From the NCBI GenBank assembly GCA_026874595.1, contig CM049314.1, positions 53,677,812 to 53,741,811 on the forward strand: a stretch of 64,000 nucleotides of DNA, given 5' to 3'. The notes under the pieces were generated by a model. That model made no database searches, had not been told where the DNA came from, and was given only the letters and a program-made list of their open reading frames with translations. Numbering within the stretch: the first letter of the stretch is position 1; each line of letters begins with the position of its first letter. Of the stretch, positions 3,044 to 62,650 are shown in pieces. The stretch is from Sipunculus nudus. Its lineage: Eukaryota > Annelida > Sipuncula > Golfingiida > Sipunculidae. The position numbers and the translations under genes are program-made.

Positions 3044-3690
3044 TCAGAGATTCTCTATTAAAAATTGAACCAGGTCTGTCATGGCTTTCGCGCCGGAATC
3101 CAGCCTTAGAGGGCGTTCTATGAAGCTGCACGATCCATGAATGCTGTCCCTTGAGTGTTCTAGGGTGACCTTGACGTTGGCTTTTTCTAATCTTTTAGCG
3201 TAAATGACGCCCTCATCGCGGAACACGTCATACTCGGCAGTCAGCACGTACGTGGTTGGCAGCTTCTGAAGGTCCACAGCCATCAGCGGGAACGCGTATG
3301 GATTAGTTACAAATGACTCCAATCTCTGTATTAAGGCAGGGTCGCCTTCTGTCAAAGATTCCGATTGAAAGTCTCTCCTGTAGCGTTTCGGCAACAGTTT
3401 GACGTCAATCATCTGGCGGTAAGCTTTTTTAATTTCCAGTGACGTGTGGTTACCAGCAGCAATAGCTGCGATGTCGTCCTGACTGGTACCCGAGTACAGG
3501 GTGGTCAGGTAGGCCACCGACTCTGTGTCATAAAACGCCATCCCGCTGTACCGGCGGTACGACGGAAGATCGAAGGTGAGACTCTGTAGCCATGGATACA
3601 TGAGGGCTTGCACCTTTGGTCTCGGCTTGAAGTTGTCATCTCGGAGTCTGAGGGCTACGGCGGCGGCAGCGTTCCCTCCCGAGTTCTCTC
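3044..3690 (-). CDS. AADAC-like exon 6 (C-terminal half, altered nucleophile elbow)
   Basis: Terminal coding exon of 647 bases ending in TGA at 3046-3044. It starts at acceptor TGTCTTTTACAG and reads [17 protein letters not shown], so the nucleophile motif across the junction is G-E-N-S-G-G-N. In the family the third residue is the catalytic Ser; here the codon is AAC (Asn196), one transition from AGC. Downstream the core is well preserved: [35 protein letters not shown] with the acid Asp348, and DSIHGSCSF with the base His378. There are no internal stops or frameshifts, so if function is lost it is through the point change rather than decay. Confidence 0.9.
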
Positions 3691-12183: not shown

Positions 12184-15100
12184 TGACAAAGTTTAAGTTC
12201 CCTGCATTATAATTCAAGGGCAAGCCTGACATCCCTATTTTGCCAGCCGAGTGGAGCCACGAAACACGGCTTAATACTAAAGGCTGCCGCATCTGAGTAG
12301 CTATTATGGCTCCGGGCTCTATTCGTAGCATTTACATTTTTGCGGAATCCTCATGATAACCCGTAAGTGACACAATGTTGAATAATAAAGTTTTCGTTAT
12401 GAATGCTCCAACATGGCTTTATCGCATGGGCCACACACATTTTGGGCAGCTAGGCTACCTGGTGTGATGGTTCAGTGACTGTTGTTTAGATATTCATGAT
12501 GACTATATAGTCATATTAAAGTCATATTTAAGAAATATCAAACATCTTGTCGAACAATTTAGCAAAAAATCTTACTAACACCACACACGAGGAAATTATA
12601 CAAATTGGCTTTTTTTTCAAAGTCAGCCAAGTGAAATTCCCTCCTCAAAAGAATACTATAAATGTTAATTTGAAAATGTTGTTTCTGTTTTCTTTATTTA
12701 TGTATATCTTGGTACAGGCTTGTAATCTGCCAGAAACATGAACAATTCGAGACGATAAATCAGAGCGGATAATGCTACACATTTTAACCAGGGGTACACA
12801 ATCGTTGACTCGTTAGGTTCTCACCTGTCAGCAGCTGACAGACAAGAAACCACATTGCCAATAACTTTGTCGTAAAATGTTAAATACGGAAGTTTCTGTT
12901 TCTTCTGTTTCTGTTGAGAGAATACAACTGTCTGGGAGGTTGAGGGCCCATCATAGGTCACGTAACTATACACCTGGCCGTGGGTACGTTGTATGTTAAA
13001 ACGCAGTTGTTTTTTTTTCACTTGTATACTGCGAAGAAGAAATACCGCGTCTCTGACTCACGATCAAAAATATTTTTTTTTATGATACTGGGTTACCATG
13101 AATACGACTGGAATTAAGCAGGGGCGGACTTAAAAAAGGGTAGGGGCGCCCCCTGTCGACCTAATAAATGATAAAAAAGTAGGAAAAAATCACTCTTTAT
13201 ACCGAAAAACGGAATTTGCTTTTCGCACCGTTTTCTTCGTGACTTCTACAGGCGAGAGTTATGAAAAAAGTCTGGCAATCCTGACAAACTAGTTACATGG
13301 GCTAGTGTTGAATGCTGACAGCCTTTTAACATTAATTCAACTAAATTTATAATATTGATAATTTAAACAATTCTTCAAGGAATTTATTATCATGAAATAA
13401 AAGCTAACGTAATATTTTGTAACTTGAAGACTCACTTTGGGAAAAAAATGAAATATATAATAGGGAATCGCAAAAGTTGCCTAACTCACCAAAGGTATTT
13501 CGAGTTAATTGAATTAAATAATTTAATTGATTACAAGTTCAGTATGCCTGGAAAAACCCCATACTGATTTTAGGAGTGTGGACAATGATGGGCACCCTTG
13601 TCCTCACAGCACCCTAGTCACCACAGTACCCTAGTTCTCACAGTAACCTAGTCCTAACAGCACCCTAATCCTTACAGCACCCTAGTCCTCATAGTACCCT
13701 AGTCCCAACAGCACCCCAGTCCTGACAGCACCTTAGTCCTAACAGTACCCTAATCCTCATAGTACCCTAGTCCTAACAGCACCCCAGTCCTGACATTACA
13801 TTAGTCCTAACAGCACCCTAGTCTTCATTGTATCCTAGTCCTAACAGCACCCCAGTCCTGACAGCACCTTAGTCCTAACAGCACCCTAGTCCTCATAGTA
13901 CCCTAGTCCTAACAGCACCCTAGTCCTCATAGTACCCTAGTCCTAACAGCACCCCAGTCCTGAAAGCACCTTAGTCCTAACAGCACCCCAGTCCTCAAAG
14001 CGCCCTAGTCCTCACAGTGCCCCAATCCTCACAGTACCAAGTCCTTACGGCACCCTAGTCCTCACAGTACCCTAGTCCTCTAAGTACCCTAGTCCGCTTA
14101 GTACCCGAGTCCTCACAGTACCCTAATCCTCACAGTACCCTAATCCTCACAGTACCCTAGTTCTCACAGTAACCTAGTCCTAACAGCACCCTAGTCCTTA
14201 CAGCACCCTAGTCCTCATAGTACCCTAGTCCTAACAGCACCCCAGTCCTGACAGCACCTTAGTCCTAACAGCACCCTAGCCCTCATAGTACCCTAGTCCT
14301 AACAGCACGCCAGTTCTGACAGCACCTTAGTCCTAACAGCGCCCTAGTCTTCATAGTACCCTAGTCCTAACAGCACCCTAGTCCTCATAGAACCCTAGTC
14401 CTAACAGCACCCCAGTCCTGAAAGCACCTTAGTCCTAACAGCACCCCAGTCCTCAAAGCACCCTAGTCCTCACAGTGCCCCAATCCTCACAGTACCAAGT
14501 CCTTACGGCACCCTAGTCCTCACAGTACCGTAGTCCTCTAAGTACCCTAGTCCTCTTAGTACCCGAGTCCTCACAGTACCCTATTCCTCATAGTACCCTA
14601 GTCCTCACAGTACCTAAGCCCTAACAGCCCCCTAGTCCTCACAGCAACCTAGTTCTTACAGTACTTCAGTCCTTTCAGTGGCCCAGTCCTCAAAGCACCC
14701 AGTCCTTACAGTACCCAAGTCCTCACAGCATCGTAGTCCTCACAACACCCTTGTCCTCCAAGTACCCTAGTCCTCACAGTACCCTAGTCCTCACAGTACC
14801 CGAGTCCTCACAGTACCCTTATCCTCACAGTACCCTAGTCCTCTAAGTACCCTAGTCCTCTTAATACCCTAGTCCTCACAGTACCCTAGTCCTCACAGTA
14901 CCCTAGTCCTCACAGTACCTAAGCCCAAACAGCCGCCTAGTCCTCACAGCAACCTAGTCCTCACAGTACCCTAGTCCTCTTAGAACCCGAGTCCTCACAG
15001 TACCCTAATCCTCACAGTACCCTAGTCCTCTTAGTACCCGAGTCCTCACAGTACCCTAATCCTCACAGTACCCTAGTCCTCTAAGTACCCTAGTCCTCTT

Positions 15101-18100
15101 AGTACCCTAGTCCTCACAGTACCCTATTCCTCACAGTACCCTAGTCCTCACAGTACCTAAGCCCTAACAGCCCCCTAGTCCTCACAGCAACCTAGTCCTC
15201 ACAGTACCCTAGTCCTCTAAGTACCCTAGTCCTCTTAGTACCCGAGTCCTCACAGTACCCTAATCCTCACAGTACCCTAGTCCTCTTAGTACCCGAGTCC
15301 TCACAGTACCCTAATCCTAACAGTACCCTAGTCCTCTAAGTACCCTAGTCCTCTTAGTACCCTAGTCCACTAAGTACCCTAGTCCTCTTAGTACCCTAGT
15401 CCTCACAGTACCCGAGTCCTCAGAGTACCCTAATCCTCACAGTACCCTAGTCCTCTAAGTACCTTAGTCCTCTTAGTACCATAGTCCTCACAGTACCCTA
15501 GTCCTCACAGTACCCTAGTCCTCACAGTACCTAAGCCCTAACAGCCTCCTAGTCCTCACAGCAACCTAGTCCTCACAGTACCCTAATCCTCTTAGTACCC
15601 TAGTCCTCACAGTACCCTAATCTTCTTAGTACCCGAGTCCTCACAGTACCCTAGTCCTCACAGTACCTTAGCCCTAACAGCCCCCTAGTCCTCACAGTAA
15701 CCTAGTCCTCACAGTACCCTAGTCCTCTTAGTACTCTAGTCCTCACAGTACCCTAGTCCTCACAGTACCCTAGTCCTCACAGTACCTAAGCCCTAACAGC
15801 CCCCTAGTCCTCACAGTACCTTAGTCCTCACAGCAACCTAGTCCTCACAGTACCCTAGTCCTCAAAGTACCCTAGTCCTCTTAGTAACCTAGTCCTCACA
15901 GTACCCTAGTCCTCACAGTACCTAAGCCCTAACAGCCCCCTAGTCCTCACAGCAACCTAGTCCTCACAGTACCCTAGTCCTCTTAGTACCCTAGTCCTCA
16001 CAGTACCCTAGTCCTCTTAGTACCCGAGTCCTCACAGTACCCTAGTCCTCACAGTACCCTTGTCCTCACTACCCTGGTCCTCACAGTACCTAAGCCCTAA
16101 CAGCCCCCTAGTCCTCACAGCCGCCTAGTCCTCACAGTACCCTAGTCCTCTTAGTACCCTAGTCCTCACAGTACCCTAGTCCTCTTAGTACCCGAGTCCT
16201 CACAGTACCCTAATCCTCACAGTACCCTAGTCCTCTAAGTACCCTAGTCCTCTTAGTACCCTAGTCCTCACAGTACCCTAGTTCTCACAGTGCCCTAGTC
16301 CTCACAGTACCTAAGCCCTAACAGCCCCCTAGTCCTCACAGCAACCTAGTCCTCACAGTACCCTAGTCCTCTTAGTACCCTAGTCCTCGCAGTACCTAAG
16401 CCCTAACAGCCCCCTAGTCCTCACAGTACCTTAGTCCTCACAGCACCCTAGTCCTCTAAGTACCCTAGTCCTCTTAGTACCCTAGTCCTCACAGTACCCT
16501 AGTCCTCACAGTACCTAAGCCCTAACAGCCCCCAAGTCCTCACAGCAACCTAGTCCTCACAGTACCCTAGTCCTTTTAGTACCCTAGTCCTCTTAGTACC
16601 CGAGTCCTCACAGTACCCTAATCCTCACAGTACCCTAGTCCTCTAAGTACCCTAGTCCTCTTAGTACCCTAGTCCTCACAGTACCCTAGTTCTCACAGTG
16701 CCCTAGTCCTCACAGTACCTTAGCCCTAACAGCCCCCTAGTCCTCACAGTAACCTAGTCCTCACAGTACCCTAGTCCTCTTAGTACTCTAGTCCTCACAG
16801 TACCCTAGTCCTCACAGTACCCTAGTCCTCACAGTACCTAAGCCCTAACAGCCCCCTAGTCCTCACAGTACCTTAGTCCTCACAGCAACCTAGTCCTCAC
16901 AGTACCCTAGTCCTCAAAGTACCCTAGTCCTCTTAGTAACCTAGTCCTCACAGTACCCTAGTCCTCACAGCAACCTAGTCCTCACAGTACCCTAGTCCTC
17001 TTAGTACCCTAGTCCTCACAGTACCCTAGTCCTCTTAGTACCCGAGTCCTCACAGTACCCTAATCCTCACAGTACCCTAGTCCTCTAAGTACCCTAGTCC
17101 TCTTAGTACCCTAGTCCTCACAGTACCCTAGTTCTCACAGTGCCCTAGTCCTCACAGTACCTAAGCCCTAACAGCCCCCTAGTCCTCACAGCAACCTAGT
17201 CCTCACAGTACCCTAGTCCTCTTAGTACCCTAGTCCTCGCAGTACCTAAGCCCTAACAGCCCCCTAGTCCTCACAGTACCTTAGTCCTCACAGCACCCTA
17301 GTCCTCTAAGTACCCTAGTCCTCTTAGTACCCTAGTCCTCACAGTACCCTAGTCCTCACAGTACCTAAGCCCTAACAACCCCCAAGTCCTCACAGCAACC
17401 TAGTCCTCACAGCAACCTAGTCCTCTAAGTACCCTAGTCCTCTTAGTACCCGAGTCCTCACAGTACCCTAATCCTCACAGTACCTAAGCCCTAACAGCCC
17501 CCTAGTCCTCACAGTACCTTAGTCCTCACAGCAACCTAGTCCTCACAGTACCTTAGTCCTCACAGCACTCTAGTCCTCACAGTACCCTAGTCCTTTTAGT
17601 ACCCTAGTCCTCAGAGTACCCTAATCCTCACAGTACCTAAGCTCTAACAGCCCCCTAGTCCTCACAGCCCCCTAGTCCTCACAGTACCTTAGTCCTCACA
17701 GTACCCTAGTCCTCACAGTACCTAAGCCCTAACAGCCCCCAAGTCCTCACAGCAACCTAGTCCTCACAGCAACCTAGTCCTCTAAGTACCCTAGTCCTCT
17801 TAGTACCCGAGTCCTCACAGTACCCTAATCCTCATAGTACCTAAGCCCTAACAGCCCCCTAGTCCTCACAGTACCCTAGTCCTCACAGTATCTAAGCCCT
17901 AACAGCCCCCTAGTCCTCACAGCAACCTAGTCCTCACAGTACCCTAATCCTCCTAGTACCCTAGTCCTCACAGTACCCTAATCTTCTTAGTACCCGAGTC
18001 CTCACAGTACCCTAGTCCTCACAGTACCTTAGCCCTAACAGCCCCCTAGTCCTCACAGTAACCTAGTCCTCACAGTACCCTAGTCCTCTTAGTACTCTAG

Positions 18101-21100
18101 TCCTCACAGTACCCTAGTCCTCACAGTACCCAAGTCCTCACAGTACCTAAGCCCTAACAGCCCCCTAGTCCTCACAGTACCTTAGTCCTCACAGCAACCT
18201 AGTCCTCACAGTACCCTAGTCCTCAAAGTACCCTAGTCCTCTTAGTAACCTAGTCCTCACAGTACCCTAGTCCTCACAGTACCTAAGCCCTAACAGCCCC
18301 CTATTCCTCACAGCAACCTAGTCCTCACAGTACCCTAGTCCTCTTAGTACCCTAGTCCTCACAGTACCCTAGTCCTCTTAGTACCCGAGTCCTCACAGTA
18401 CCCTAGTCCTCACAGTACCCTAGTCCTCACTACCCTAGTCCTCACAGTACCTAAGCCCTAACAGCCCCCTAGTCCTCACAGCAACCTAGTCCTCTCAGTA
18501 CCCTAGGCCTCTTAGTACCCTAGTCCTCACAGTACCCTAATCCTCACAGTACCCTAGTCCTCTAAGTACCCTAGTCCTCTTAGTACCCTAGTCCTCACAG
18601 TACCCTAGTCCTCACAGTACACTAGTCCTCACTACCCTGGTCCTCACAGTACCTAAGCCCTAACAGCCCCCTAGTCCTCACAGCAACCTAGTCCTCACAG
18701 TACCCTAGTCCTCTTAGTACCCTAGTCCTCACAGTACCCTAATCCTCACAGTACCCTAGTCCTCTAAGTACCCTAGTCCTCTTAGTACCCTAGTCCTCAC
18801 AGTACCCTAGTTCTCACAGTGCCCTAGTCCTCACAGTACCTAAGCCCTAACAGCCCCCTAGTCCTCACAGCAACCTAGTCCTCACAGTACCCTAGTCCTC
18901 TTAGTACCCTAGTCCTCGCAGTACCTAAGCCCTAACAGCCCCCTAGTCCTCACAGTACCTTAGTCCTCACAGCACCCTAGTCCTCTAAGTACCCTAGTCC
19001 TCTTAGTACCCTAGTCCTCACAGTACCCTAGTTCTCACAGTACCTAAGCCCTAACAGGCCCCAAGTCCTCACAGCAACCTAGTCCTCACAGCAACCTAGT
19101 CTTCTAAGTACCCTAGTCCTCTTAGTACCCGAGTCCTCACAGTACCCTAATCCTCACAGTACCTAAGCCCTAACAGCCCCCTAGTCCTCACAGTACCTTA
19201 GTCCTCACAGCAACCTAGTCCTCACAGTACCTTAGTCCTCACAGCACTCTAGTCCTCACAGTACCCTAGTCCTCTTAGTACCCTAGTCCTCACAGTACCC
19301 TAATCCTCACAGTACCTAAGCTCTAACAGCCCCCTAGTCCTCACAGCCCCCTAGTCCTCACAGTACCTTAGTCCTCACAGTACCCTAGTCCTCACAGTAC
19401 CTAAGCCCTAACAGCCCCCAAGTCCTCACAGCAACCTAGTCCTCACAGCAACCAGTCCTCTAAGTACCCTAGTCCTCTTAGTACCCGAGTCCTCACAGTA
19501 CCCTAATCCTCATAGTACCTAAGCCCTAACAGCCCCCTAGTCCTCACAGCAACCTAGTCCTCACAGTACCCTAGTCCTCACAGTACCTAAGCCCTAACAG
19601 CCCCCTAGTCCTCACAGCAACCTAGTCCTCACAGTACCCTAATCCTCTTAGTACCCTAGTCCTCACAGTACCCTAATCTTCTTAGTACCCTAGTCCTCAC
19701 AGTACCCTAGTCCTCACTACCCTAGTCCTCACAGTACCTAAGCCCTAACAGCCCCCTATTCCTCACAGCAACCTAGTCCTCACAGTACCCTAGTCCTCTT
19801 AGTACCCTAGTCCTCACAGTACCCTAGTCCTCTGAGTACCCGAGTCCTCACAGTACCCTAGTCCTCACAGTACCCTAGTCCTCACTACCCTAGTCCTCAC
19901 AGTACCTAAGCCCTAACAGCCCCCTAGTCCTCACAGCAACCTAGTCCTCACAGTACCCTAGGCCTCTTAGTACCCTAGTCCTCACAGTACCTAACAGCCC
20001 CCTAGTCCTCACAGCAACCTAGTCCTCACAGTACCCTAGTCCTCTTAGTACCCTAGTCCTCACAGTACCCTAGTCCTCTTAGTACCCGAGTTCTCACAGT
20101 ACCCTTATCCTCACAGTACCCTAGTCCTCTAAGTACCCTAGTCCTCTTAGTACCCTAGTCCTCACAGTACCCTAGTTCTCACAGTGCCCTAGTCCTCACA
20201 GTACCTAAGCCCTAACAGCCCCCTAGTCCTCACAGCAACCTAGTCCTCACAGTACCCTAGTCCTCTTAGTACCCTAGTCCTCGCAGTACCTAAGCCCTAA
20301 CAGCCCCCTAGTCCTCACAGTACCTTAGTCCTCACAGCACCCTAGTCCTCTAAGTACCCTAGTCCTCTTAGTACCCTAGTCCTCACAGTACCCTAGTTCT
20401 CACAGTACCTAAGCCCTAACAGGCCCCAAGTCCTCACAGCAACCTAGTCCTCACAGCAACCTAGTCTTCTAAGTACCCTAGTCCTCTTAGTACCCGAGTC
20501 CTCACAGTACCCTAATCCTCACAGTACCTAAGCCCTAACAGCCCCCTAGTCCTCACAGTACCTTAGTCCTCACAGCAACCTAGTCCTCACAGTACCTTAG
20601 TCCTCACAGCACTCTAGTCCTCACAGTACCCTAATCTTCTTAGTACCCTAGTCCTCACAGTACCCTAGTCCTCACTACCCTAGTCCTCACAGTACCTAAG
20701 CCCTAACAGCCCCCTAGTCCTCACAGCAACCTAGTCCTCACAGTACCCTAGGCCTCTTAGTACCCTAGTCCTCACAGTACCCTAATCCTCACAGTACCCT
20801 AGTCCTCTAAGTACCCTAGTCCTCTTAGTACCCTAGTCCTCACAGTACCCTTGTTCTCACAGTGCCCTAGTCCTCACAGTACCTAAGCCCTAACAGCCCC
20901 CTAGTCCTCACAGCAACCTAGTCCTCACAGTACCCTAGTCCTCTTAGTACCCTAGTCCTCGCAGTACCTAAGCCCTATCAGCCCCCTAGTCCTCACAGTA
21001 CCTTAGTCCTCACAGCACCCTAGTCCTCTAAGTACCCTAGTCCTCACAGCAACCTAGTCCTCTTAGTACCCTAGTCCTCACAGTACCCTAGTCCTCTTAG

Positions 21101-24100
21101 TACCCGAGTCCTCTTAGTACCCTAGTCCTCACAGTACCTAAGCCCTAACAGCCCCCTAGTCCTCACAGTACCTTAGTCCTCACAGCAACCTAGTCCTCAC
21201 AGTACCTTAGTCCTCACAGCACCCTAGTCCTCTAAGTACCCTAGTCCTCTTAGTACCCTAGTCCTCACAGTACCCTAGTCCTCACAGTACCTAAGCCCTA
21301 ACAGCCCCCAAGTCCTCACAGCAACCTAGTCCTCACAGCAACCTAGTCCTCTAAGTCCCCTAGTCCTCTTAGTACCCGAGTCCTCACAGTACCCTAATCC
21401 TCACAGTACTTAAGCCCTAACAGCCCCCTAGTTCTCACAGTACCTTAGTCCTCAAAGCAACCTAGTCCTCACAGTACCTTAGTCCTCACAGCACTCTAGT
21501 CCTCACAGTACCCTAGTCCTCTTAGTACCCTAGTCCTCACAGTACCCTAATCCTCACAGTACCTAAGCCCTAACAGCCCCCTAGTCCTCACAGCCCCCTA
21601 GTCCTCACAGTACCTTAGTCCTCACAGTACCCTAGTCCTCACATTACCTAAGCCCTAACAGCCCCCTATTCCTCACAGCAACCTAGTCCTCACAGTACCC
21701 TAGTCCTCTTATTACCCTAGTCCTCACAGTACCCTAGTCCTCTTAGTACCCGAGTCCTCACAGTACCCTAGTCCTCACAGTACCCTAGTCCTCACTACCC
21801 TAGTCCTCACAGTACCTAAGCCCTAACAGCCCCCTAGTCCTCACAGCAACCTAGTCCTCACAGTACCCTAGGCCTCTTAGTACCCTAGTCCTCACAGTAC
21901 CTAACAGCCCCCTAGTCCTCACAGCAACCTAGTCCTCACAGTACCCTAGTCCTCTTAGTACCCTAGTCCTCACAGTACCCTAGTCCTCTTAGTACCCGAG
22001 TTCTCACAGTACCCTAATCCTCACAGTACCCTAGTCCTCTAAGTACCCTAGTCCTCTTAGTACCCTAGTCCTCACAGTACCCTAGTTCTCACAGTGCCCT
22101 AGTCCTCACAGTACCTAAGCCCTAACAGCCCCCTAGTCCTCACAGCAACCTAGTCCTCACAGTACCCTAGTCCTCTTAGTACCCTAGTCCTCGCAGTACC
22201 TAAGCCCTAACAGCCCCCTAGTCCTCACAGTACCTTAGTCCTCACAGCACCCTAGTCCTCTAAGTACCCTAGTCCTCTTAGTACCCTAGTCCTCACAGTA
22301 CCCTAGTTCTCACAGTACCTAAGCCCTAACAGGCCCCAAGTCCTCACAGCAACCTAGTCCTCACAGCAACCTAGTCTTCTAAGTACCCTAGTCCTCTTAG
22401 TACCCGAGTCCTCACAGTACCCTAATCCTCACAGTACCTAAGCCCTAACAGCCCCCTAGTCCTCACAGTACCTTAGTCCTCACAGCAACCTAGTCCTCAC
22501 AGTACCTTAGTCCTCACAGCACTCTAGTCCTCACAGTACCCTAATCTTCTTAGTACCCTAGTCCTCACAGTACCCTAGTCCTCACTACCCTAGTCCTCAC
22601 AGTACCTAAGCCCTAACAGCCCCCTAGTCCTCACAGCAACCTAGTCCTCACAGTACCCTAGTCCTCTTAGTACCCTAGTCCTCGCAGTACCTAAGCCCTA
22701 TCAGCCCCCTAGTCCTCACAGTACCCTAGTCCTCACAGTACCCTAGTCCTCTTAGTACCCGAGTCCTCACAGTACCCTAGTCCTCACAGTACCCTAGTCC
22801 TCACTACCCTAGTCCTCACAGTACCTAAGCCCTAACAGCCCCCTAGTCCTCACAGCAACCTAGTCCTCACAGTACCCTAGGCCTCTTAGTACCCTAGTCC
22901 TCACAGTACCTAACAGCCCCCTAGTCCTCACAGCAACCTAGTCCTCACAGTACCCTAGTCCTCTTAGTACCCTAGTCCTCACAGTACCCTAGTCCTCTTA
23001 GTACCCGAGTTCTCACAGTACCCTAATCCTCACAGTACCCTAGTCCTCTAAGTACCCTAGTCCTCTTAGTACCCTAGTCCTCACAGTACCCTAGTTCTCA
23101 CAGTGCCCTAGTCCTCACAGTACCTAAGCCCTAACAGCCCCCTAGTCCTCACAGCAACCTAGTCCTCACAGTACCCTAGTCCTCTTAGTACCCTAGTCCT
23201 CGCAGTACCTAAGCCCTAACAGCCCCCTAGTCCTCACAGTACCTTAGTCCTCACAGCACCCTAGTCCTCTAAGTACCCTAGTCCTTTTAGTACCCTAGTC
23301 CTCACAGTACCCTAGTTCTCACAGTACCTAAGCCCTAACAGGCCCCAAGTCCTCACAGCAACCTAGTCCTCACAGCAACCTAGTCTTCTAAGTACCCTAG
23401 TCCTCTTAGTACCCGAGTCCTCACAGTACCCTAATCCTCACAGTACCTAAGCCCTAACAGCCCCCTAGTCCTCACAGTACCTTAGTCCTCACAGCAACCT
23501 AGTCCTCACAGTACCTTAGTCCTCACAGTACCTTAGTCCTCACAGCAACCTAGTCCTCACAGTACCCTAGTCCTCAAAGTACCCTAGTCCTCTTAGTAAC
23601 CTAGTCCTCACAGTACCCTAGTCCTCACAGTACCTAAGCCCTAACAGCCCCCTATTCCTCACAGCAACCTAGTCCTCACAGTACCCTAGTCCTCTTAGTA
23701 CCCTAGTCCTCACAGTACCCTAGTCCTCTTAGTACCCGAGTCCTCACAGTACCCTAGTCCTCACAGTACCCTAGTCCTCACTACCCTAGTCCTCACAGTA
23801 CCTAAGCCCTAACAGCCCCCTAGTCCTCACAGCAACCTAGTCCTCACAGCAACCTAGTCCTCACAGCACCCTAGTCCTTTTAGTACCCTAGTCCTCACAG
23901 TACCCTAGTTCTCACAGTACCTAAGCCCTAACAGGCCCCAAGTCCTCACAGCAACCTAGTCCTCACAGCAACCTAGTCTTCTAAGTACCCTAGTCCTCTT
24001 AGTACCCGAGTCCTCACAGTACCCTAATCCTCACAGTACCTAAGCTCTAACAGCCCCCTAGTCCTCACAGCCCCCTAGTCCTCACAGTACCTTAGTCCTC

Positions 24101-27100
24101 ACAGCAACCTAGTCCTCACAGTACCCTAATCTTCTTAGTACCCTAGTCCTCACAGTACCCTAGTCCTCACTACCCTAGTCCTCACAGTACCTAAGCCCTA
24201 ACAGCCCCCTAGTCCTCACAGCAACCTAGTCCTCACAGTACCCTAGGCCTCTTAGTACCCTAGTCCTCACAGTACCCTAATCCTCACAGTACCCTAGTCC
24301 TCTAAGTACCCTAGTCCTCTTAGTACCCTAGTCCTCACAGTACCCTTGTTCTCACAGTGCCCTAGTCCTCACAGTACCTAAGCCCTAACAGCCCCCTAGT
24401 CCTCACAGCAACCTAGTCCTCACAGTACCCTAGTCCTCTTAGTACCCTAGTCCTCGCAGTACCTAAGCCCTATCAGCCCCCTAGTCCTCACAGTACCTTA
24501 GTCCTCACAGCACCCTAGTCCTCTAAGTACCCTAGTCCTCACAGCAACCTAGTCCTCTTAGTACCCTAGTCCTCACAGTACCCTAGTCCTCTTAGTACCC
24601 GAGTCCTCTTAGTACCCTAGTCCTCACAGTACCTAAGCCCTAACAGCCCCCTAGTCCTCACAGTACCTTAGTCCTCACAGCAACCTAGTCCTCACAGTAC
24701 CTTAGTCCTCACAGCACCCTTGTCCTCTAAGTACCCTAGTCCTCTTAGTACCCTAGTCCTCACAGTACCCTAGTCCTCACAGTACCTAAGCCCTAACAGC
24801 CCCCAAGTCCTCACAGCAACCTAGTCCTCACAGCAACCTAGTCCTCTAAGTCCCCTAGTCCTCTTAGTACCCGAGTCCTCACAGTACCCTAATCCTCACA
24901 GTACTTAAGCCCTAACAGCCCCCTAGTTCTCACAGTACCTTAGTCCTCACAGCAACCTAGTCCTCACAGTACCTTAGTCCTCACAGCACTCTAGTCCTCA
25001 CAGTACCCTAGTCCTCTTAGTACCCTAGTCCTCACAGTACCCTAATCCTCACAGTACCTAAGCCCTAACAGCCCCCTAGTCCTCACAGCCCCCTAGTCCT
25101 CACAGTACCTTAGTCCTCACAGTACCCTAGTCCTCACATTACCTAAGCCCTAACAGCCCCCTATTCCTCACAGCAACCTAGTCCTCACAGTACCCTAGTC
25201 CTCTTAGTACCCTAGTCCTCACAGTACCCTAGTCCTCTTAGTACCCGAGTCCTCACAGTACCCTAGTCCTCACAGTACCCTAGTCCTCACTACCCTAGTC
25301 CTCACAGTACCTAAGCCCTAACAGCCCCCTAGTCCTCACAGCAACCTAGTCCTCACAGTACCCTAGGCCTCTTAGTACCCTAGTCCTCACAGTACCTAAC
25401 AGCCCCCTAGTCCTCACAGCAACCTAGTCCTCACAGTACCCTAGTCCTCTTAGTACCCTAGTCCTCACAGTACCCTAGTCCTCTTAGTACCCGAGTTCTC
25501 ACAGTACCCTAATCCTCACAGTACCCTAGTCCTCTAAGTACCCTAGTCCTCTTAGTACCCTAGTCCTCACAGTACCCTAGTCCTCACAGTACCCTAATCC
25601 TCACAGTACCTAAGCTCTAACAGCCCCCTAGTCCTCACAGCCCCCTAGTCCTCACAGTACCTTAGTCCTCACAGTACCCTAGTCCTCACAGTACCTAAGC
25701 CCTAACAGCCCCCAAGTCCTCAAAGCAACCTAGTCCTCACAGCAACCAGTCCTCTAAGTACCCTAGTCCTCTTAGTACCCGAGTCCTCACAGTACCCTAA
25801 TCCTCATAGTACCTAAGCCCTAACAGCCCCCTAGTCCTCACAGCAACCTAGTCCTCACAGTACCCTAGTCCTCACAGTACCTAAGCCCTAACAGCCCCCT
25901 AGTCCTCACAGCAACCTAGTCCTCACAGTACCCTAATCCTCTTAGTACCCTAGTCCTCACAGTACCCTAATCTTCTTAGTACCCTAGTCCTCACAGTACC
26001 CTAGTCCTCACTACCCTAGTCCTCACAGTACCTAAGCCCTAACAGCCCCCTATTCCTCACAGCAACCTAGTCCTCACAGTACCCTAGTCCTCTTAGTACC
26101 CTAGTCCTCACAGTACCCTAGTCCTCTTAGTACCCGAGTCCTCACAGTACCCTAGTCCTCACAGTACCCTAGTCCTCACTACCCTAGTCCTCACAGTACC
26201 TAAGCCCTAACAGCCCCCTAGTCCTCACAGCAACCTAGTCCTCACAGTACCCTAGGCCTCTTAGTACCCTAGTCCTCACAGTACCTAACAGCCCCCTAGT
26301 CCTCACAGCAACCTAGTCCTCACAGTACCCTAGTCCTCTTAGTACCCTAGTCCTCACAGTACCCTAGTCCTCTTAGTACCCGAGTTCTCACAGTACCCTA
26401 ATCCTCACAGTACCCTAGTCCTCTAAGTACCCTAGTCCTCTTAGTACCTTAGTCCTCACAGTACCCTAGTTCTCACAGTGCCCTAGTCCTCACAGTACCT
26501 AAGCCCTAACAGCCCCCTAGTCCTCACAGCAACCTAGTCCTCACAGTACCCTAGTCCTCTTAGTACCCTAGTCCTCGCAGTACCTAAGCCCTAACAGCCC
26601 CCTAGTCCTCACAGTACCTTAGTCCTCACAGCACCCTAGTCCTCTAAGTACCCTAGTCCTCTTAGTACCCTAGTCCTCACAGTACCCTAGTTCTCACAGT
26701 ACCTAAGCCCTAACAGGCCCCAAGTCCTCACAGCAACCTAGTCCTCACAGCAACCTAGTCTTCTAAGTACCCTAGTCCTCTTAGTACCCGAGTCCTCACA
26801 GTACCCTAATCCTCACAGTACCTAAGCCCTAACAGCCCCCTAGTCCTCACAGTACCTTAGTCCTCACAGCAACCTAGTCCTCACAGTACCTTAGTCCTCA
26901 CAGCACTCTAGTCCTCACAGTACCCTAGTCCTCTTAGTACCCTAGTCCTCACAGTACCCTAATCCTCACAGTACCTAAGCTCTAACAGCCCCCTAGTCCT
27001 CACAGCCCCCTAGTCCTCACAGTACCTTAGTCCTCACAGTACCCTAGTCCTCACAGTACCTAAGCCCTAACAGCCCCCAAGTCCTCACAGCAACCTAGTC

Positions 27101-30100: not shown

Positions 30101-33100
30101 AAGCCCTAACAGCCCCCTATTCCTCACAGCAACCTAGTCCTCACAGTACCCTAGTCCTCTTAGTACCCTAGTCCTCACAGTACCCTAGTCCTCTTAATAC
30201 CCGAGTCCTCACAGTACCCTAGTCCTCACAGTACCCTAGTCCTCACTACCCTAGTCCTCACAGTACCTAAGCCCTAACAGCCCCCTAGTCCTCACAGCAA
30301 CCTAGTCCTCACAGTACCCTAGGCCTCTTAGTACCCTAGTCCTCACAGTACCCTAATCCTCACAGTACCCTAGTCCTCTAAGTACCCTAGTCCTCTTAGT
30401 ACCCTAGTCCTCACAGTACCCTAGTCCTCACAGTACCCTAGTCCTCACTACCCTGGTCCTCACAGTACCTAAGCCCTAACAGCCCCCTAGTCCTCACAGC
30501 AACCTAGTCCTTACAGTACCCTAGTCCTCTTAGTACCCTAGTCCTCACAGTACCCTAGTCCTCTTAGTACCCGAGTCCTCACAGTACCCTAATCCTCACA
30601 GTACCCTAGTCCTCTAAGTACCCTAGTCCTCTTAGTACCCTAGTCCTCACAGTACCCTAGTTCTCACAGTGCCCTAGTCCTCACAGTACCTAAGCCCTAA
30701 CAGCCCCCTAGTCCTCACAGCAACCTAGTCCTCACAGTACCCTAGTCCTCTTAGTACCCTAGTCCTCGCAGTACCTAAGCCCTAACAGCCCCCTAGTCCT
30801 CACAGTACCTTAGTCCTCACAGCACCCTAGTCCTCTAAGTACCCTAGTCCTCTTAGTACCCTAGTCCTCACAGTACCCGAGTCCTCACAGTACCCTAATC
30901 CTCACAGTACCTAAGCCCTAACAGCCCCCTAGTCCTCACAGCAACCTAGTCCTCACAGTACCCTAGTCCTCTTAGTACCCTAGTCCTCGCAGTACCTAAG
31001 CCCTAACAGCCCCCAAGTCCTCACAGCAACCTAGTCCTCACAGCAACCTAGTCCTCTAAGTACCCGAGTCCTCTTAGTACCCGAGTCCTCACAGTACCCT
31101 AATCCTCACAGTACCTAAGCCCTAACAGCCCCCTAGTCCTCACAGTACCTTAGTCCTCACAGCAACCTAGTCCTCTTAGTACCCTAGTCCTCACAGTACC
31201 CTAGTCCTCTTAGTACCCGAGTCCTCTTAGTACCCTAGTCCTCACAGTACCCTAGTCCTCTTAGTACCCGAGTCCTCTAAGTACCCTAGTCCTCTTAGTA
31301 CCCTAGTCCTCACAGTACCCTAGTCCTCACAGTACCCTAGTCCTCACAGTACCTAAGCCCTAACAGCCCCCAAGTCCTCACAGCAACCTAGTCCTCACAG
31401 CAACCTAGTCCTCTAAGTACCCGAGTCCTCTTAGTACCCGAGTCCTCACAGTACCCTAATCCTCACAGTACCTAAGCCCTAACAGCCCCCTAGTCCTCAC
31501 AGTACCTTAGTCCTCACAGCAACCTAGTCCTCTTAGTACCCTAGTCCTCACAGTACCCTAGTCCTCTTAGTACCCGAGTCCTCTTAGTACCCTAGTCCTC
31601 ACAGTACCCTAGTCCTCTTAGTACCCGAGTCCTCTAAGTACCCTAGTCCTCTTAGTACCCTAGTCCTCACAGTACCCTAGTTCTCACAGTGCCCTAGTCC
31701 TCACAGTACCTAAGCCCTAACAGCCCCCTAGTCCTCACAGCAACCTAGTCCTCACAGTACCCTAGTCCTCTTAGTACCCTAGTCCTCGCAGTACCTAAGC
31801 CCTATCAGCCCCCTAGTCCTCACAGTACCTTAGTCCTCAAAGCGACCTAGTCCTCTAAGTACCCTAGTCCTCTTAGTACCCTAGTCCTCACAGTACCCTA
31901 GTCCTCACAGTACCTAAGCCCTAACAGCCCCCAAGTCCTCACAGCAACCTAGTCCTCACAGCAACCTAGTCCTCTAAGTACCCGAGTCCTCTTAGTACCC
32001 GAGTCCTCACAGTACCCTAATCCTCACAGTACCTAAGCCCTAACAGCCCCCTAGTCCTCACAGTACCTTAGTCCTCACAGCAACCTAGTCCTCTTAGTAC
32101 CCTAGTCCTCACAGTACCCTAGTCCTCTTAGTACCCGAGTCCTCTTAGTACCCTAGTCCTCACAGTACCTAAGCCCTAACAGCCCCCTAGTCCTCACAGT
32201 ACCTTAGTCCTCACAGCAACCTAGTCCTCACAGTACCTTAGTCCTCACAGCACCCTAGTCCTCTAAGTACCCTAGTCCTCTTAGTACCCTAGTCCTCACA
32301 GTACCCTAGTCCTCACAGTACCTAAGCCCTAACAGCCCCCAAGTCCTCACAGCAACCTAGTCCTCACAGCAACCTAGTCCTCACGGCACCCTAGTCCTCT
32401 AAGTACCCTAGTCCTCTTAGTACCCGAGTCCTCACAGTACCCTAATCCTCACAGTACCTAAGCCCTAACAGCCCCCTAGGCCTCACAGTACCCGAGTCCT
32501 CACAGCAACCTAGTCCTCACAGTACCTTAGTCCTCACAGCACCTAAGTCCTCACAGTACCTTAGTCCTCACAGCAACCTAGTCCTCACAGTACCTTAGTC
32601 CTCTTAGTACCCTAGTCCTCACAGTACCCTAATCCTCACAGTACCTAAGCCCTAACAGCCCCCTAGTCCTCACAGCCCCCTAGTCCTCACAGCAACCTAG
32701 TCCTCACAGTACCCTAGTCCTCTTAGTAACCTAGTCCTCACAGTACCCTAGTCCTCACAGTACCTAAGCCCTAACAGCCCCCTATTCCTCACAGCAACCT
32801 AGTCCTCACAGTACCCTAGTCCTCTTAGTACCCTAGTCCTCACAGTACCCTAGTCCTCTTAATACCCGAGTCCTCACAGTACCCTAGTCCTCACAGTACC
32901 CTAGTCCTCACTACCCTAGTCCTCACAGTACCTAAGCCCTAACAGCCCCCTAGTCCTCACAGCAACCTAGTCCTCACAGTACCCTAGGCCTCTTAGTACC
33001 CTAGTCCTCACAGTACCCTAATCCTCACAGTACCCTAGTCCTCTAAGTACCCTAGTCCTCTTAGTACCCTAGTCCTCACAGTACCCTAGTCCTCACAGTA

Positions 33101-36100
33101 CCCTAGTCCTCACTACCCTGGTCCTCACAGTACCTAAGCCCTAACAGCCCCCTAGTCCTCACAGCAACCTAGTCCTTACAGTACCCTAGTCCTCTTAGTA
33201 CCCTAGTCCTCACAGTACCCTAGTCCTCTTAGTACCCGAGTCCTCACAGTACCCTAATCCTCACAGTACCCTAGTCCTCTAAGTACCCTAGTCCTCTTAG
33301 TACCCTAGTCCTCACAGTACCCTAGTTCTCACAGTGCCCTAGTCCTCACAGTACCTAAGCCCTAACAGCCCCCTAGTCCTCACAGCAACCTAGTCCTCAC
33401 AGTACCCTAGTCCTCTTAGTACCCTAGTCCTCGCAGTACCTAAGCCCTAACAGCCCCCTAGTCCTCACAGTACCTTAGTCCTCACAGCACCCTAGTCCTC
33501 TAAGTACCCTAGTCCTCTTAGTACCCTAGTCCTCACAGTACCCGAGTCCTCACAGTACCCTAATCCTCACAGTACCTAAGCCCTAACAGCCCCCTAGTCC
33601 TCACAGTACCTTAGTCCTCACAGCAACCTAGTCCTCACAGTACCTTAGTCCTCACAGCACTCTAGTCCTCACAGTACCCTAGTCCTCTTAGTACCCTAGT
33701 CCTCACAGTACCCTAGTCCTCTTAGTACCCTAGTCCTCACAGTACCCTAATCCTCACAGTACCTAAGCTCTAACAGCCCCCTAGTCCTCACAGCCCCCTA
33801 GTCCTCACAGTACCTTAGTCCTCACAGTACCCTAGTCCTCACAGTACCTAAGCCCTAACAGCCCCCAAGTCCTCACAGCAACCTAGTCCTCACAGCAACC
33901 TAGTCCTCTAAGTACCCTAGTCCTCTTAGTACCCGAGTCCTCACAGTACCCTAATCCTCATAGTACCTAAGCCCTAACAGCCCCCTAGTCCTCACAGTAC
34001 CCTAGTCCTCACAGTACCTAAGCCCTAACAGCCCCCTAGTCCTCACAGTACCTTAGTCCTCACAGCAACCTAGTCCTCACAGTACCTTAGTCCTCACAGC
34101 ACCCTAGTCCTCTAAGTACCCTAGTCCTCTTAGTACCCTAGTCCTCACAGTACCCTAGTCCTCACAGTACCTAAGCCCTAACAGCCCCCAAGTCCTCACA
34201 GCAACCTAGTCCTCACAGCAACCTAGTCCTCTAAGTACCCTAGTCCTCTTAGTACCCGAGTCCTCACAGTACCCTAATCCTCACAGTACCTAAGCCCTAA
34301 CAGCCCCCTAGTTCTCACAGTACCTTAGTCCTCACAGCAACCTAGTCCTCACAGTACCTTAGTCCTCACAGTACCCTAGTCCTCACATTACCTAAGCCCT
34401 AACAGCCCCCAAGTCCTCACAGCAACCTAGTCCTCACAGCAACCTAGTCCTCTAAGTACCCTAGTCCTCTTAGTACCCGAGTCCTCACAGTACCCTAATC
34501 CTCATAGTACCTAAGCCCTAACAGCCCCCTAGTCCTCACAGTACCCTAGTCCTCACAGTACCTAAGCCCTAACAGCCCCCTAGTCCTCACAGTACCTTAG
34601 TCCTCACAGCAACCTAGTCCTCACAGTACCTTAGTCCTCACAGCACCCTAGTCCTCTAAGTACCCTAGTCCTCTTAGTACCCTAGTCCTCACAGTACCCT
34701 AGTCCTCACAGTACCTAAGCCCTAACAGCCCCCAAGTCCTCACAGCAACCTAGTCCTCACAGCAACCTAGTCCTCTAAGTACCCTAGTCCTCTTAGTACC
34801 CGAGTCCTCACAGTACCCTAATCCTCACAGTACCTAAGCCCTAACAGCCCCCTAGTTCTCACAGTACCTTAGTCCTCACAGCAACCTAGTCCTCACAGTA
34901 CCTTAGTCCTCACAGCACTCTAGTCCTCACAGTACCCTAATCCTCACAGTACCTAAGCCCTAACAGCCCCCTAGTTCTCACAGTACCTTAGTCCTCACAG
35001 CAACCTAGTCCTCACAGTACCTTAGTCCTCACAGCACTCTAGTCCTCACAGTACCCTAGTCCTCTTAGTACCCTAGTCCTCACAGTACCCTAATCCTCAC
35101 AGTACCTAAGCCCTAACAGCCCCCTAGTCCTCACAGCCCCCTAGTCCTCACAGTACCTTAGTCCTCACAGTACCCTAGTCCTCACATTACCTAAGCCCTA
35201 ACAGCCCCCAAGTCCTCACAGCAACTAGTCCTCACAGCAACCTAGTCCTCTAAGTACCCTAGTCCTCTTAGTACCCTAGTCCTCACAGTACCCTAATCCT
35301 CACAGTACCTAAGCCCTAACAGCCCCCTAGTCCTCACAGTACCTTAGTCCTCACAGCAACCTAGTCCCCACAGTACCTTAGTCCTCACAGCACTCTAGTC
35401 CTCACAGTACCCTAGTCCTCTTAGTACCCTAGTCCTCACAGTACCCTAATCCTCACAGTACCTAAGCCCTAACAGCCCCCTAGTCCTCACAGTACTTTAG
35501 TCCTCACAGCCCCTAGTCCTCACAGTACCTTAGTCCTCACAGCACCCTAGTCCTCTAAGTACCCTAGTCCTCTTAGTACCCTAGTCCTCACAGTACCTAA
35601 GCCCTAACAGCCCACAAATCCTCACAGCAACCTAGTCCTCACAGCAACCTAGTCCTCTAAGTACCCCAGTCCTCTTAGTACCCTAGTCCTCACAGTACCC
35701 TAGTCCTCACAGTACCTAAGCCCTAACAGCCCCCAAGTCCTCCGAGCAACCTAGTCCTCACAGCAACCTAGTCCTCTAAGTACCCTAGTCCTCTTAGTAC
35801 CCTAGTCCTCACAGTACCCTAGTCCTCACAGTACCTAAGCCCTAACAGCCCCCAAGTCCTCACAGCAACCTAGTCCTCACAGCAACCTAGTCCTCTAAGT
35901 ACCCTAGTCCTCTTAGTACCCTAGTCCTCAAAGTACCTTAGTCCTCACAGAAACCTAGTCCTCACAGTACCTTAGTCCTCACAGCACCCTAGTCCTCTAA
36001 GTACCCTAGTCCTCTTAGAACCCTAGTCCTCTTAGTACCCGAGTCCTCACAGTACCCTAGTCCTCACAGCAACCAAGTCCTCACAGCAACTTAGTCCTCA

Positions 36101-39100: not shown

Positions 39101-42100
39101 TAGTCCTCTAAGTACCTTAGTCCTCATAGCACCCTAGTCCCCACAGCACCCTAGTCCTCACAGCACCCTATTCCTCACAGCACCCTATTCCTCACAGCAC
39201 CCTAGTCCTCACAGTACCCTAGTCCTCAAAGCACCCTAGTCCTCACAGCACCCTAGTCCTCACAGCAACCTAGTCCTCACAGCACCTTAGTCCTCATAGC
39301 ACCCTAGTCCTCATAGCACCCTAGTCCTCACAGCACCCTAGTCCTCACAGCACCCTAGTCCTCACAGTACCCGAGTCCTCACAGCACCCTATTCCTACAG
39401 CACCCTAGTCCTCACAGCACCCTATTCATCACAGCACCCTAGTCCTCACAGCACCCTAGTCCTCATAGCACCCTAGTTCTCACAGTACCCGAGTCCTAAC
39501 AGATCCCTAGTCCTCACAGCACCCTAGGCCTTACAGTACTTCAGTCCTTTCAGTAGCCCAGTCCCCAAAGCACCCAGTCCTAAAAGCACCCTAATCCCTT
39601 ACAGTACCCCAGTCCTCAAAGTACCCAAGTCCTTATAGTACCTGAGTTCTAAAAGTACCCAAGTCCTTACAGCATTCTAGTCCTTACACTACTTTAGTCC
39701 TTTCAGTAGCCCAGTCCTCAAAGCACCCAGACCTACCAGCACCCCAGTCCTGAAAGCACCTTAGTCCTAACAGCACCCCAGTCCTCAAAGCACCCTAGTC
39801 CTCACAGTGCCCCAATCCTCACAGTACCAAGTCCTTACAATACCCTAGTCCTCACAGTTCCCTAGTCCTCTAAGTACCCTAGTCCTCTTAGTACCTGAGT
39901 CCTCAAAGTACCCTATTCCTCACAGTACCCTAGTCCTCACAGTACCTAAGCCCTAACAGCCCCCTAGTCCTCACAGCAACCTAGTTCTTACAGTACTTCA
40001 GTCCTTTCAGTGGCCCAGTCCTCAAAGCACCCAGTCCTTACAGTACCCAAGTCCTCACAGCACCCTAGTCCTCACAACACCCTTGTCCTAACAGCATCGT
40101 GGTCCTCACAGTACCCTAGTCCTTACAGTACCCCAGTCCTTACAGTACCTCAGTCCTCACAGTACTCAAGTCGTAACAGCACTCTTGTTCTTTCAGTAGC
40201 CTAGTCCTAACAGCTCCCCAGTCCTCAAAGCACCCAATCCTTACAGTACCCCAATCCTCACAGTACCAAGTCCTCACAGTACCCTATTCCTCACAGTACC
40301 CTAGTCATCACAGTACCTAAGCCCTAACAGCACCCTAGTCCTCACAGCAACCTAGTTCTTACAGTACTTCAGTCCTTTCAGTGGCCCAGTCCTCAAAGAA
40401 CCCAGTACTCACAGTACCCAAGTCCTAACAGCACCCTAGTCCTAACAACACCCTTGTCCTAACAGCATCGTGGTCCCCAAAGTACCCTAGTCCTTACAGT
40501 ACCCCAGTCCTTACAGTACCTTAGTCCTCACAGCACCCTAGTCCTCATAGTACCCTAGTCCTAACAGCACCCCAGTCCTGAAAGCACCTTAGTCCTAACA
40601 GCACCCCAGTCCTCAAAGGACCCTAGTCCTCACAGTGCCCCAATCCTCACAGTAACAAGTCCTTACGGCACCCTAGTCCTCACAGTACCCTAGTCCTCTA
40701 AGTACCCTAGTCCTCTTAGTACCCGAGTCCTCACAGTACCCTAATCCTCACAGTACCCTAGTCCTCACAGTACCTAAGCCCTAACAGCACCCTAGTCCTC
40801 ACAGCAACCTAGTTCTTACAGTACTTCAGTCCTTTCAGTGGCCCAGTCCTCAAAGCACCCAGTCCTTACAGTACCCAAGTCCTCACAGCACCCTAGTCCT
40901 CACAACACCCTTGTCCTAACAGCATCGTGGTCCTCACAGTACCCTAGTCCTTACAGTACCCCAGTCCTTACAGTACCTTAGTCCTCACAGCACCCTAGTC
41001 CTCATAGTACCCTAGTCCTAACAGCACCCCAGTCCTGAAAGCACCTTAGTCCTAACAGCACCCCAGTCCTCAAAGCACCCTAGTCCTCACAGCACCCTAG
41101 TCCTCACAACACCCTTGTCCTAACAGCATCGTGGTCCTCACAGTACCCTAGTCCTTACAGTACCCCAGTCCTTACAGTACCTCAGTCCTCACAGTACCCA
41201 AGTCCTCACAGTACTCAAGTCGTAACAGCACTCTTGTCCTTTCAGTAGCCTAGTCCTAACAGCATCCCAGTCCTCAAAGCACCCAATCCTCACAGTACCC
41301 CAGTCCTCACAGTACCCCAGTCCTCTGTATACACCAGTCCTCCGAGAAGTTTCTGCCAGATGTTTGGATCTATTTAAGGATTCTTTTTATGCTTTATTAT
41401 GTGCGGCTAGACATCTTGATACTTTTTATACCTTTGCCGTTTACCGGCGTGCCGTCAGTACAGACATATCAGCCTGTAACTGGCTATGTACACCTGTAGG
41501 GTATGCCAAAATTGCAGCTGTTTCTTAACAGTGAAAAGTTGCTCACACGTAGCAGCCGATCATAACACAAACTCTGCTCTTTTAATTTTCAGACCAGGTT
41601 AATCGCTTTCATGTAGCTTGTGTTATAACAATCGTCATTATTTTAATTTTGTAAATAAAGGTTTACTTTTCCTTTCAACTTTTGATCGGACAATCAATCA
41701 TGATATTTATATTTCCACAGCTAACTCTGTTTATACACAATTCCCGGATAAAGGTTTTCCTTATATCCACTAACCACAGTCAACCACACGTCTTGTATCT
41801 ACTAACCACAGTCAACCACAAGTCATATCTACTAACCACAGTCAACCACATGTCATATCTACTAACCACAGTCAACCACACGTCTTATATCTACTAACCA
41901 CAATCAACCACACGTCTTTTATCCACTAACCACAGTCAACCACACGTCTTATATCTGCTAACCACAGCGACCACAGGTCTTATATCTACTAACCACAGTT
42001 GACCACACGTCTTATATCGACTAACCACAGTCAACCACACGTCTTTTATCTACTTACCACAGTCAACCACACGTCTTTTATCTACTTACCACAGTCAACC

Positions 42101-61734: not shown

Positions 61735-62650
61735 TATGTGTTACATATTAGAGTGGCTCTCTGCCACGTAAACATGATTGTAGGTGGCGCCACCTGTTAT
61801 TTGAATGAGAAACTATCCATTTATACACATGCTAAATTTCATGTGGAAAAGTCAACCCACTGCAGAGATATGAGTGATTTTATCCCACAGCAGACAAACA
61901 GATGGACGCTGTGCAAAAATGGCTGCAGGTGGCGCCACCATTTTTGTGTATGTTATAAAGCTATCCAAGGGCTACATTTGTGTATTTTTTTTCCTGATTG
62001 GTCAAACGAGTCTGGAGATATAAGCATTAATGTCTGCAGCGTGAACGTGAATGAAGCTGGCGCCACCTGTCATAAAATCAAGAAAGCTATCCAGGATGTA
62101 TACGCATGCCGAATTACAGATAATTTGGTCAAACCACTGCAGAGATATGAGTGATTTTAACCCACAGCAGACAAACAGATGGACGCTGTGCAAAAATGGC
62201 TCAGGTGGCGCCACCATTTTTGTGTATGTTATAAAGCTATCCAAGAGCTAGATTTGTGTAATTTTTCTTTTCCTGATTGGTCGAACGAGTCCGGAGATAT
62301 AAGCATGGATGTCTACAGCGTGAACGTGAATGTAGGTGGCGCCACCTGTCATAAAATCAAGAAAGCTGTGCGGGATGTATACGCATGCTGAATTTCAGGT
62401 AATATGGTCAAACCACTGCAGAGATATGAGTGATTTTAACCCAACGCAGACAAACAGATGGACGCTGTGCAAACATTATTGCAGGTGGCGCCACCTTTTT
62501 TGTGTATATTATAAAGCTATCCAAGGGCTACATTTGTGTAAAAAAATTTTCCTGATCGGTCAAACGGTTCCCGAGATATGTGGGTTTATGTGTGGAAAGA
62601 GACGCACAAAAGGACGCTGGGCAGAGACGTTAGGCACCAGTTCACAAGTG
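61735..62650. repeat. About 275-bp tandem repeat, 3.3 copies, with 12-bp palindromes
   Basis: Units recur at spacings of 273 and 279 bases (GGCGCC at 61786, 62059, 62338). Each carries ACTGCAGAGATATGAGTG, CAGACAAACAGATGGACGCT, TTTTGTGTATGTTATAAAGC and GTCAAACGAGTC. Two palindromic sites per unit, GGTGGCGCCACC, give six in total (61783, 61928, 62056 with one mismatch pair, 62204, 62335, 62484). Open frames across it repeat the same peptides and look incidental. Origin unknown. Confidence 0.85.

Follow-up and report, generated by a model that had tools for sequence, protein, structure and literature searches.

A 27.7-kb tandem array of Sipunculus nudus, probably a single-locus minisatellite, with a homogeneous core and diverged, related ends

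The described systems closest to the locus treated here, a 27.7-kb head-to-tail array of a 17-bp unit within 64,000 nucleotides of Sipunculus nudus DNA (contig CM049314.1, positions 53,677,812 to 53,741,811; hereafter the window), are the minisatellites MSY1 and MS205 and the layered alpha-satellite of human centromeres. Excerpts of PMC3899988 give minisatellites as tandem units longer than about 10 bp. In excerpts of the WAMI paper, PMC2897807, the duplication of short segments is ascribed to slippage and that of long segments to reciprocal exchange and conversion, and MSY1 is described as variable at both ends. The array resembles MSY1 and MS205, as portrayed in those excerpts, in its unit of more than 10 bp, its ordered variant maps and a mode of growth in which runs of units are duplicated; it differs from them in holding 1,637 units, where the random test maps of that paper have 60-100, and in that its young part is internal, whereas MSY1 varies at both ends. 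Human centromeric alpha-satellite, in the extracts of Shepelev et al. (2009, PMC2729386) and PMC9549924 that describe it, has a homogeneous young core with diverged layers on both sides, partly symmetrical, and the array shares this organization. Unlike alpha-satellite, it has a unit of 17 bp, spans 27.7 kb rather than megabases, occupies a single locus, lies apparently in a gene and shows no regular higher-order repeat (HOR).

Tandem Repeats Finder (TRF) recovers the array at 13594-41325 with a period of 17, 1636.7 copies and 80% matches to the consensus ACCCTAGTCCTCACAGT. Wrap-around alignment of the array cuts it into 1,637 monomers belonging to 183 distinct variants, and of these monomers 1,592 are exactly 17 bp long, 20 are of 15 bp, 18 of 16 bp and five of 10 bp, with one each of 18 and 12 bp. 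An earlier note on this DNA, made from the letters alone, had placed the array at 13590..41340, had described it as nearly all 17-mers and had proposed a tandem-repeat finder as a check, under which both descriptions hold.

Divergence within the array rises towards both ends, and the ends are related to each other over 25 kb of intervening younger sequence. Each block of 10 monomers was compared with its nearest other copy and the divergences were taken in 14 bins (numbered from 0), which run from left to right as 0.050, 0.013, 0.005, 0.002, 0.008, 0.011, 0.011, 0.004, 0.003, 0.000, 0.020, 0.040, 0.023 and 0.086, so that the end bins stand at 5.0% (left) and 8.6% (right) and bins 2-10 at 0.000-0.020, in an asymmetric profile. 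Outside its own bin, the right end finds its nearest copies most often in the left end (38 blocks, the next being bin 12 with 7), and the left end finds its own most often in the right end (20 blocks, the next being bin 1 with 17). This link is present both ways with 20 bins and, with 14 bins, at block sizes of 5 and 20. When the array is divided instead into 140 windows that overlap and are each 120 monomers long, the best match of the right end is the leftmost of them (start 13594), and the best matches of the left end start at 38842, 39182 and 39012 (block sizes 5, 10 and 20, respectively), covering most of the right layer. Segments of 413-505 bp that are 95-97% identical join the end regions across 23-26 kb, and one such pair is listed with the other features in Table 1. 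The age layering is a new observation, absent from the earlier note.

The simplest reading of these data is that both ends are the remains of one older array that was split by internal growth. The starting point would have been an older array of the 17-bp unit, far smaller in size, that gained tens of kilobases as multi-monomer segments, typically a few hundred base pairs long and occasionally kilobases, were added by unequal exchange or by synthesis-dependent copying. The gains would have fallen mostly in the interior, where the long near-identical stretches would make fresh exchange likelier, and the halves of the old array would have been driven apart to the edges while still gathering substitutions; monomers of 10, 15 and 16 bases, copied along, would have produced the register shifts among the offsets. 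Several points weigh against this history. The profile is asymmetric, and the age of bin 11, at 35.4-37.4 kb, approaches that of the left edge, both at the monomer level (0.040 versus 0.050) and by a DNA-level method (0.078 versus 0.085). With 10 bins the link appears from the right end only, and at the DNA level the link from the left to the right end ties with a neighboring bin, at 7 blocks each. A 2-kb array of a 47-bp unit in the same window is without a gradient (edge/core ratio 0.63, DNA-level method). In addition, the layering statistics were picked after inspection of the data, and growth over time is read from one haplotype.

Among the alternatives, the one that survives best is that the gradient arises only passively at the edges when unequal exchange is random, as in neutral turnover of the type modeled by Smith, with no interior bias or positive feedback. 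Such exchange yields homogeneous blocks and older edges, and position-uniform models of growth, turnover and two-phase histories (550 runs over limited size distributions and rates, none of them fitted) do yield older edges, with median edge/core ratios of about 1.3-3.2. The array itself stands at 9.3 at the monomer level, and a ratio of at least 9 was reached in only 5 of the 550 uniform runs (40 of these runs were scored for a ratio of at least 5, and none had it), with the two ends linked best to each other in 11 of the 550. The simulated uniform versions therefore under-predict both the gradient and the link between the ends, and a purely passive origin seems unlikely.

Growth biased towards the interior produced the end-to-end link in 13 of 120 runs at a standard deviation (sd) of 0.3, in 50 of 120 at 0.2 and in 109 of 120 at 0.12. 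Homology-dependent exchange, in which local identity governs the events, was run 144 times with 30 runs abandoned; among the 114 that finished, 19 had a ratio of at least 6, and the median ratio rose to as much as 8.4, a value from three runs only. Part of this modeling also tells against internal growth. The success at an sd of 0.3 is low; the interior-biased models reached a ratio of 9 in 7 of 360 runs, with medians of at most 4.2 against the 9.3 observed; an sd of 0.12 yields too few long repeats; under homology-dependent exchange the edges stay too young, and the link appears in 13 of the 114 finished runs; and no simulated model matches all of the observed statistics together. Weighing these models, whose parameters are unfitted, we conclude that an older founding array would have grown chiefly in its interior, probably with the aid of recombination that depends on identity.

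The kilobase-scale duplications that the earlier note had listed at seven offsets are each found as an exact match, of 404 bp at offset 850, 420 bp at 889, 460 bp at 901, 564 bp at 1009, 645 bp at 1910, 2,617 bp at 2665 and 612 bp at 3495, and its remark that 850 and 901 are multiples of 17 and the remaining five are not is correct. Other offsets of similar rank are 7659 (663 bp), 3275 (541 bp), 544 and 1365 (527 bp each), and 6294 and 4384 (478 bp each). The ordered variant strings that it had reported are also present: the longest recurring identical string comprises 153 monomers, against a maximum of 5 in 100 shuffles and of 27 in 100 first-order Markov simulations, and strings of 20 that recur take in 50.3% of the monomers, against a mean of 0.1% and at most 3.3% in the Markov simulations, in tests that treat monomers as letters. 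Because the repeated strings exceed the maxima of both shuffles and Markov chains, the duplications are real structure and chance is excluded. The term "higher-order structure" used for them stands only for the ordered strings and the kilobase-scale duplications, as a fixed multimer period of the alpha-satellite HOR type is found neither in the offset list of the array nor in its monomer-level autocorrelation, which has its top value of 0.154 at a lag of 157 monomers and the next at 0.114, over a baseline of 0.054, with many lags close behind. In place of such a period, 31 long segment pairs cover 63% of the monomers, and duplications of many different lengths overlap as a mosaic across the array, which is layered by age and lacks a regular HOR.

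One layout within the mosaic is a swap, in which the adjacent blocks A1-A2 return as A2'-A1' (A2' differs in 3 of 86 monomers and A1' in 4 of 80), and the outer breakpoints coincide, the boundaries of the copy mapping to one and the same A1/A2 junction to within ~20 bp. This is a circular permutation and would fit the re-integration of a circle. That extrachromosomal circles, excised and re-integrated by homology, built part of the structure is nonetheless improbable, as the swap is a single instance, ordinary exchange could give the same layout, and one sub-block occurs at no fewer than six places with differing right-hand neighbors. The duplication of 2,617 bp with zero differences might likewise suggest an assembly artefact, through duplicated haplotype copies or misjoined reads; such an artefact is very unlikely in the face of many duplications of graded divergence, a single-copy right flank and the other large arrays of the assembly.

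As to the unit of change, adjacent monomers are identical with a frequency of 0.024, compared with 0.0535 expected from composition, and neighbors that are identical less often than chance are the opposite of what single-unit slippage would leave. Random tandem duplication and deletion plus new mutations was simulated with the mean segment length varied, and the outcome was scored by the number of monomer types, the ratio of adjacent identity to baseline (lag-1/base) and the fractions of monomers in repeated strings of 10, 20 and 50 (f10, f20, f50). The array has 183 types, a lag-1/base of 0.45, an f10 of 0.71, an f20 of 0.50 and an f50 of 0.19. With a mean of 1-3 monomers, repeated strings of 20 are nearly absent (f20 0-0.005) and lag-1/base is 14 to 108, while with a mean of 20 monomers (~340 bp) and 0.3-1 mutations per event there are 80-207 types, with lag-1/base at 0.53-0.56, f10 at 0.65-0.79, f20 at 0.42-0.52 and f50 at 0.09-0.15. 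Three mutations per event at the same mean fit worse (476 types, f10 0.43), and a mean of 30 monomers performs about as well as one of 20. In these models, multi-monomer duplication and deletion with a mean of about 20-30 units approaches the variant statistics and single-monomer slippage does not; the 153-monomer duplication probably needs a size distribution with a heavier tail than the exponential.

The genome searched for further copies comprised 1,426,538,692 bases in 153 contigs, the window being positions 53677812-53741811 of a 79.8-Mb contig (C9 below). An exact 34-bp dimer has 30 matches genome-wide, all 30 inside the array, and a 28-base pattern allowed up to 3 mismatches has 1,042 forward and 0 reverse matches, with 1,042 in the window alone, all in the array; the latter search is blind to scattered single monomers and to arrays more divergent than this one. 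The search of other chromosomes that the earlier note had recommended, once run, therefore places the array at one position only in the assembly, and its description of a satellite family, in the sense of arrays at many loci, is ruled out for this assembly because all genome-wide matches fall in the array. The length of 27.7 kb, the ordered variant strings and the kilobase-scale duplications might recall a satellite family with true HORs, either centromeric or spread over the genome, whose other arrays might sit in satellite-rich regions that the assembly may lack. Such a family is hardly credible against 1,042 of 1,042 matches here, a right flank that matches itself only and the want of any dominant multimer period. 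An origin inside a dispersed element was also rejected, the right flank being single-copy in the genome. With its unit of 17 bp, which is above 10 bp, and its locus-specific matches, the array is best classed, at a probability of roughly three in four, as a single-locus minisatellite of the variable number tandem repeat (VNTR) type, apparently intronic and not a member of a satellite family. Literature searches found no description of the array or of a close analogue among the papers listed, and the monomer and dimer sequence, in five forms, is absent from the text of the PMC papers searched (subscription papers and supplements lie outside that search).

In orientation the array is uniform, a 14-base core occurring 541 times forward and 0 times in reverse in the window. 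A coding repeat is ruled out by stop codons in all six frames (658 to 1,033 per frame, with a longest open stretch of 78 codons). Hairpin-driven expansion was rejected on the one 170-nt stretch that was folded as DNA (15100-15269), where the z values of +1.21 and +0.66 for the two strands are no better than shuffles. There are no strict G-quadruplex motifs on either strand, and no tRNA or Rfam match at gathering scores across the window. The minus strand of the array carries 976 copies of the splice-donor-like GTRAG and 246 of the telomere-like TTAGGG, both by-products of the monomer.

The gene around the array is apparently a minus-strand esterase of the arylacetamide deacetylase (AADAC) type, with its recognizable parts given in Table 1. 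When the hydrophobic start, the exon with the oxyanion-hole motif HGGG and the last frame were joined and compared with the PDB, carboxylesterases were matched (best E 1.6e-18); the match falls in the last frame, takes in the HGGG part weakly and leaves out the hydrophobic start. That start, taken here as the first coding exon because it resembles AADAC, had no tool confirmation or hit of its own, and the exon that should connect it with the HGGG exon could not be located. Because the start lies upstream of the array, if the assignment is right, and the HGGG exon downstream, the array likely sits in an intron of the AADAC-like gene with its G-rich strand as the transcript strand. The intronic position claimed for it previously is to this extent likely, with gene parts on both sides, and not proven, with the upstream exon unconfirmed and the intermediate one missing. 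In the nucleophile elbow (window 3671-3691, minus strand), the protein reads GENSGGN where relatives have GDSAGGN in an alignment to 1qz3, placing an Asn in the position of the catalytic Ser, and the HGGG, Asp and His regions look kept. Possibly the AADAC-like protein is catalytically dead, or the splice site has been misjudged. Three minisatellites of the window, at 5683-7669 (47 bp), 13594-41325 (17 bp) and 41760-42495 (32 bp), have a strong C excess on the plus strand (skew -0.50, -0.54 and -0.62, respectively) and are thus G-rich on the sense strand of the gene; R-loops formed in transcription could favor their instability. The array may affect how the host gene is expressed, and it is explicable without any function for that gene.

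Other large arrays lie close by. Of the 250 kb surrounding the window, 32% consists of three arrays of at least 10 kb, the other two having units of 34 and 65 bp (Table 1), and a further 0.9 kb of a unit similar to the 34-bp one is found at C9:53570001-53570935. The 34-bp unit consists of two 17-bp halves that share 11 of 17 positions with each other and 8-10 of 17 with the 17-mer at the best rotation, and the two units are apparently unrelated. The 34-bp array contains exact duplications on the kilobase scale, many of them offset by roughly 3.3-3.5 kb, and the 65-bp array only one exact duplication of at least 250 bp. By one DNA-level method, the edge/core ratio is 6.6 in the 17-bp array, 7.9 in the 34-bp array and 2.7 in the 65-bp array (3.2 with shorter blocks), so that the 34-bp and, more weakly, the 65-bp arrays likewise have older edges. 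By this method, the left end is the first foreign target of the right end in the 17- and 65-bp arrays and the second in the 34-bp array; in the opposite direction, the link ties with another bin in the 17- and 65-bp arrays, and in the 34-bp array the right end is outside the two best targets of the left. By at least one method, then, the ends are most related to each other in two of the three arrays. Four random 10-kb stretches of other contigs included one with at least 5.0 kb of a 40-bp array (contig C1, L042 5038-10000, running off the end of the stretch), one with arrays of 0.4-1.2 kb and two with no array above 0.6 kb, and on this sample of four, large minisatellites seem common in the genome beyond this region. 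Finally, a tandem unit of ~280 bp, with similar sequence in opposite orientation at window 61851-62579 and L026 5864-6675 (consensus fragments compared by eye), is probably a dispersed element.

Table 1. Coordinates of the array, its parts and surrounding features (window positions unless a contig or stretch is named).
Feature	Position	Strand	Details	Basis
17-bp tandem array	13594..41325	+	1,637 monomers; consensus ACCCTAGTCCTCACAGT on + strand, minus strand G-rich	TRF, monomer parse
Left old layer	13594..15597	+	118 monomers outside long duplications; end bin 13594-15562 at 5.0%	
Right old layer	39250..41331	+	123 monomers outside long duplications; end bin from 39352 at 8.6%	
Left-end segment	14355..14859	+	94.7% identical over 505 bp to 40515-41019, 26,160 bp apart	
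Right-end partner	40515..41019	+	partner of 14355-14859	
Young core, first copy	28325..30941	+	exact 2,617-bp duplication, offset 2665	
Young core, second copy	30990..33606	+	2,617-bp duplication, zero differences	
Block pair A1-A2	19280..22078	+	A1 19280-20627, A2 20628-22078	segment table
Swapped pair A2'-A1'	24123..26921	+	A2' 24123-25573, then A1' 25574-26921	segment table
Right flank of array	41340..41750	+	411 bp; one genome match, itself	
Open frame with last exon	3044..3730	-	Abhydrolase_3 (PF07859, E 8.5e-25)	
Open frame with RMAPEHPFP	4614..4808	-	probably a further exon of the AADAC-like gene	by eye
Exon with oxyanion-hole motif	11934..12051	-	HGGG; between AG and GT	
Putative first coding part	49140..49316	-	hydrophobic start, then GTGAGT donor	by eye
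34-bp array	C9:53576192-53617183 (L039, L038, L037, L021, L022)		40,992 bp	
65-bp array	L026 9235 to L027 9724		10,490 bp	

As a kind of locus the array is familiar, a very large but otherwise ordinary minisatellite and one more in a genome seemingly rich in them. Its record of growth is legible in 1,637 units and separates slippage from multi-unit duplication quantitatively, and its layering, at a locus without a known role at the centromere, bears on whether kinetochores or recombination in any long array are responsible for such structure. The confinement of the 17-bp unit to one locus and its setting in a gene suggest that the 17-, 34- and 65-bp arrays are non-centromeric. The discussion excerpted from PMC9549924 takes up the view that strong amplification and homogenization are tied to the kinetochore and are not intrinsic to large arrays, and layered arrays such as these, if non-centromeric, would count against the strict form of that view as given there. 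Because minisatellites of 17, 34 and 65 bp, 10-41 kb in length, have a younger core and older edges, we tentatively suggest, as an idea that may well prove wrong, that layered growth from the center outwards is intrinsic to large tandem arrays and needs no kinetochore. If true, such arrays, small and sequenced in full, would serve to examine whether kinetochore-linked recombination is required, human centromeres being ~100 times larger.

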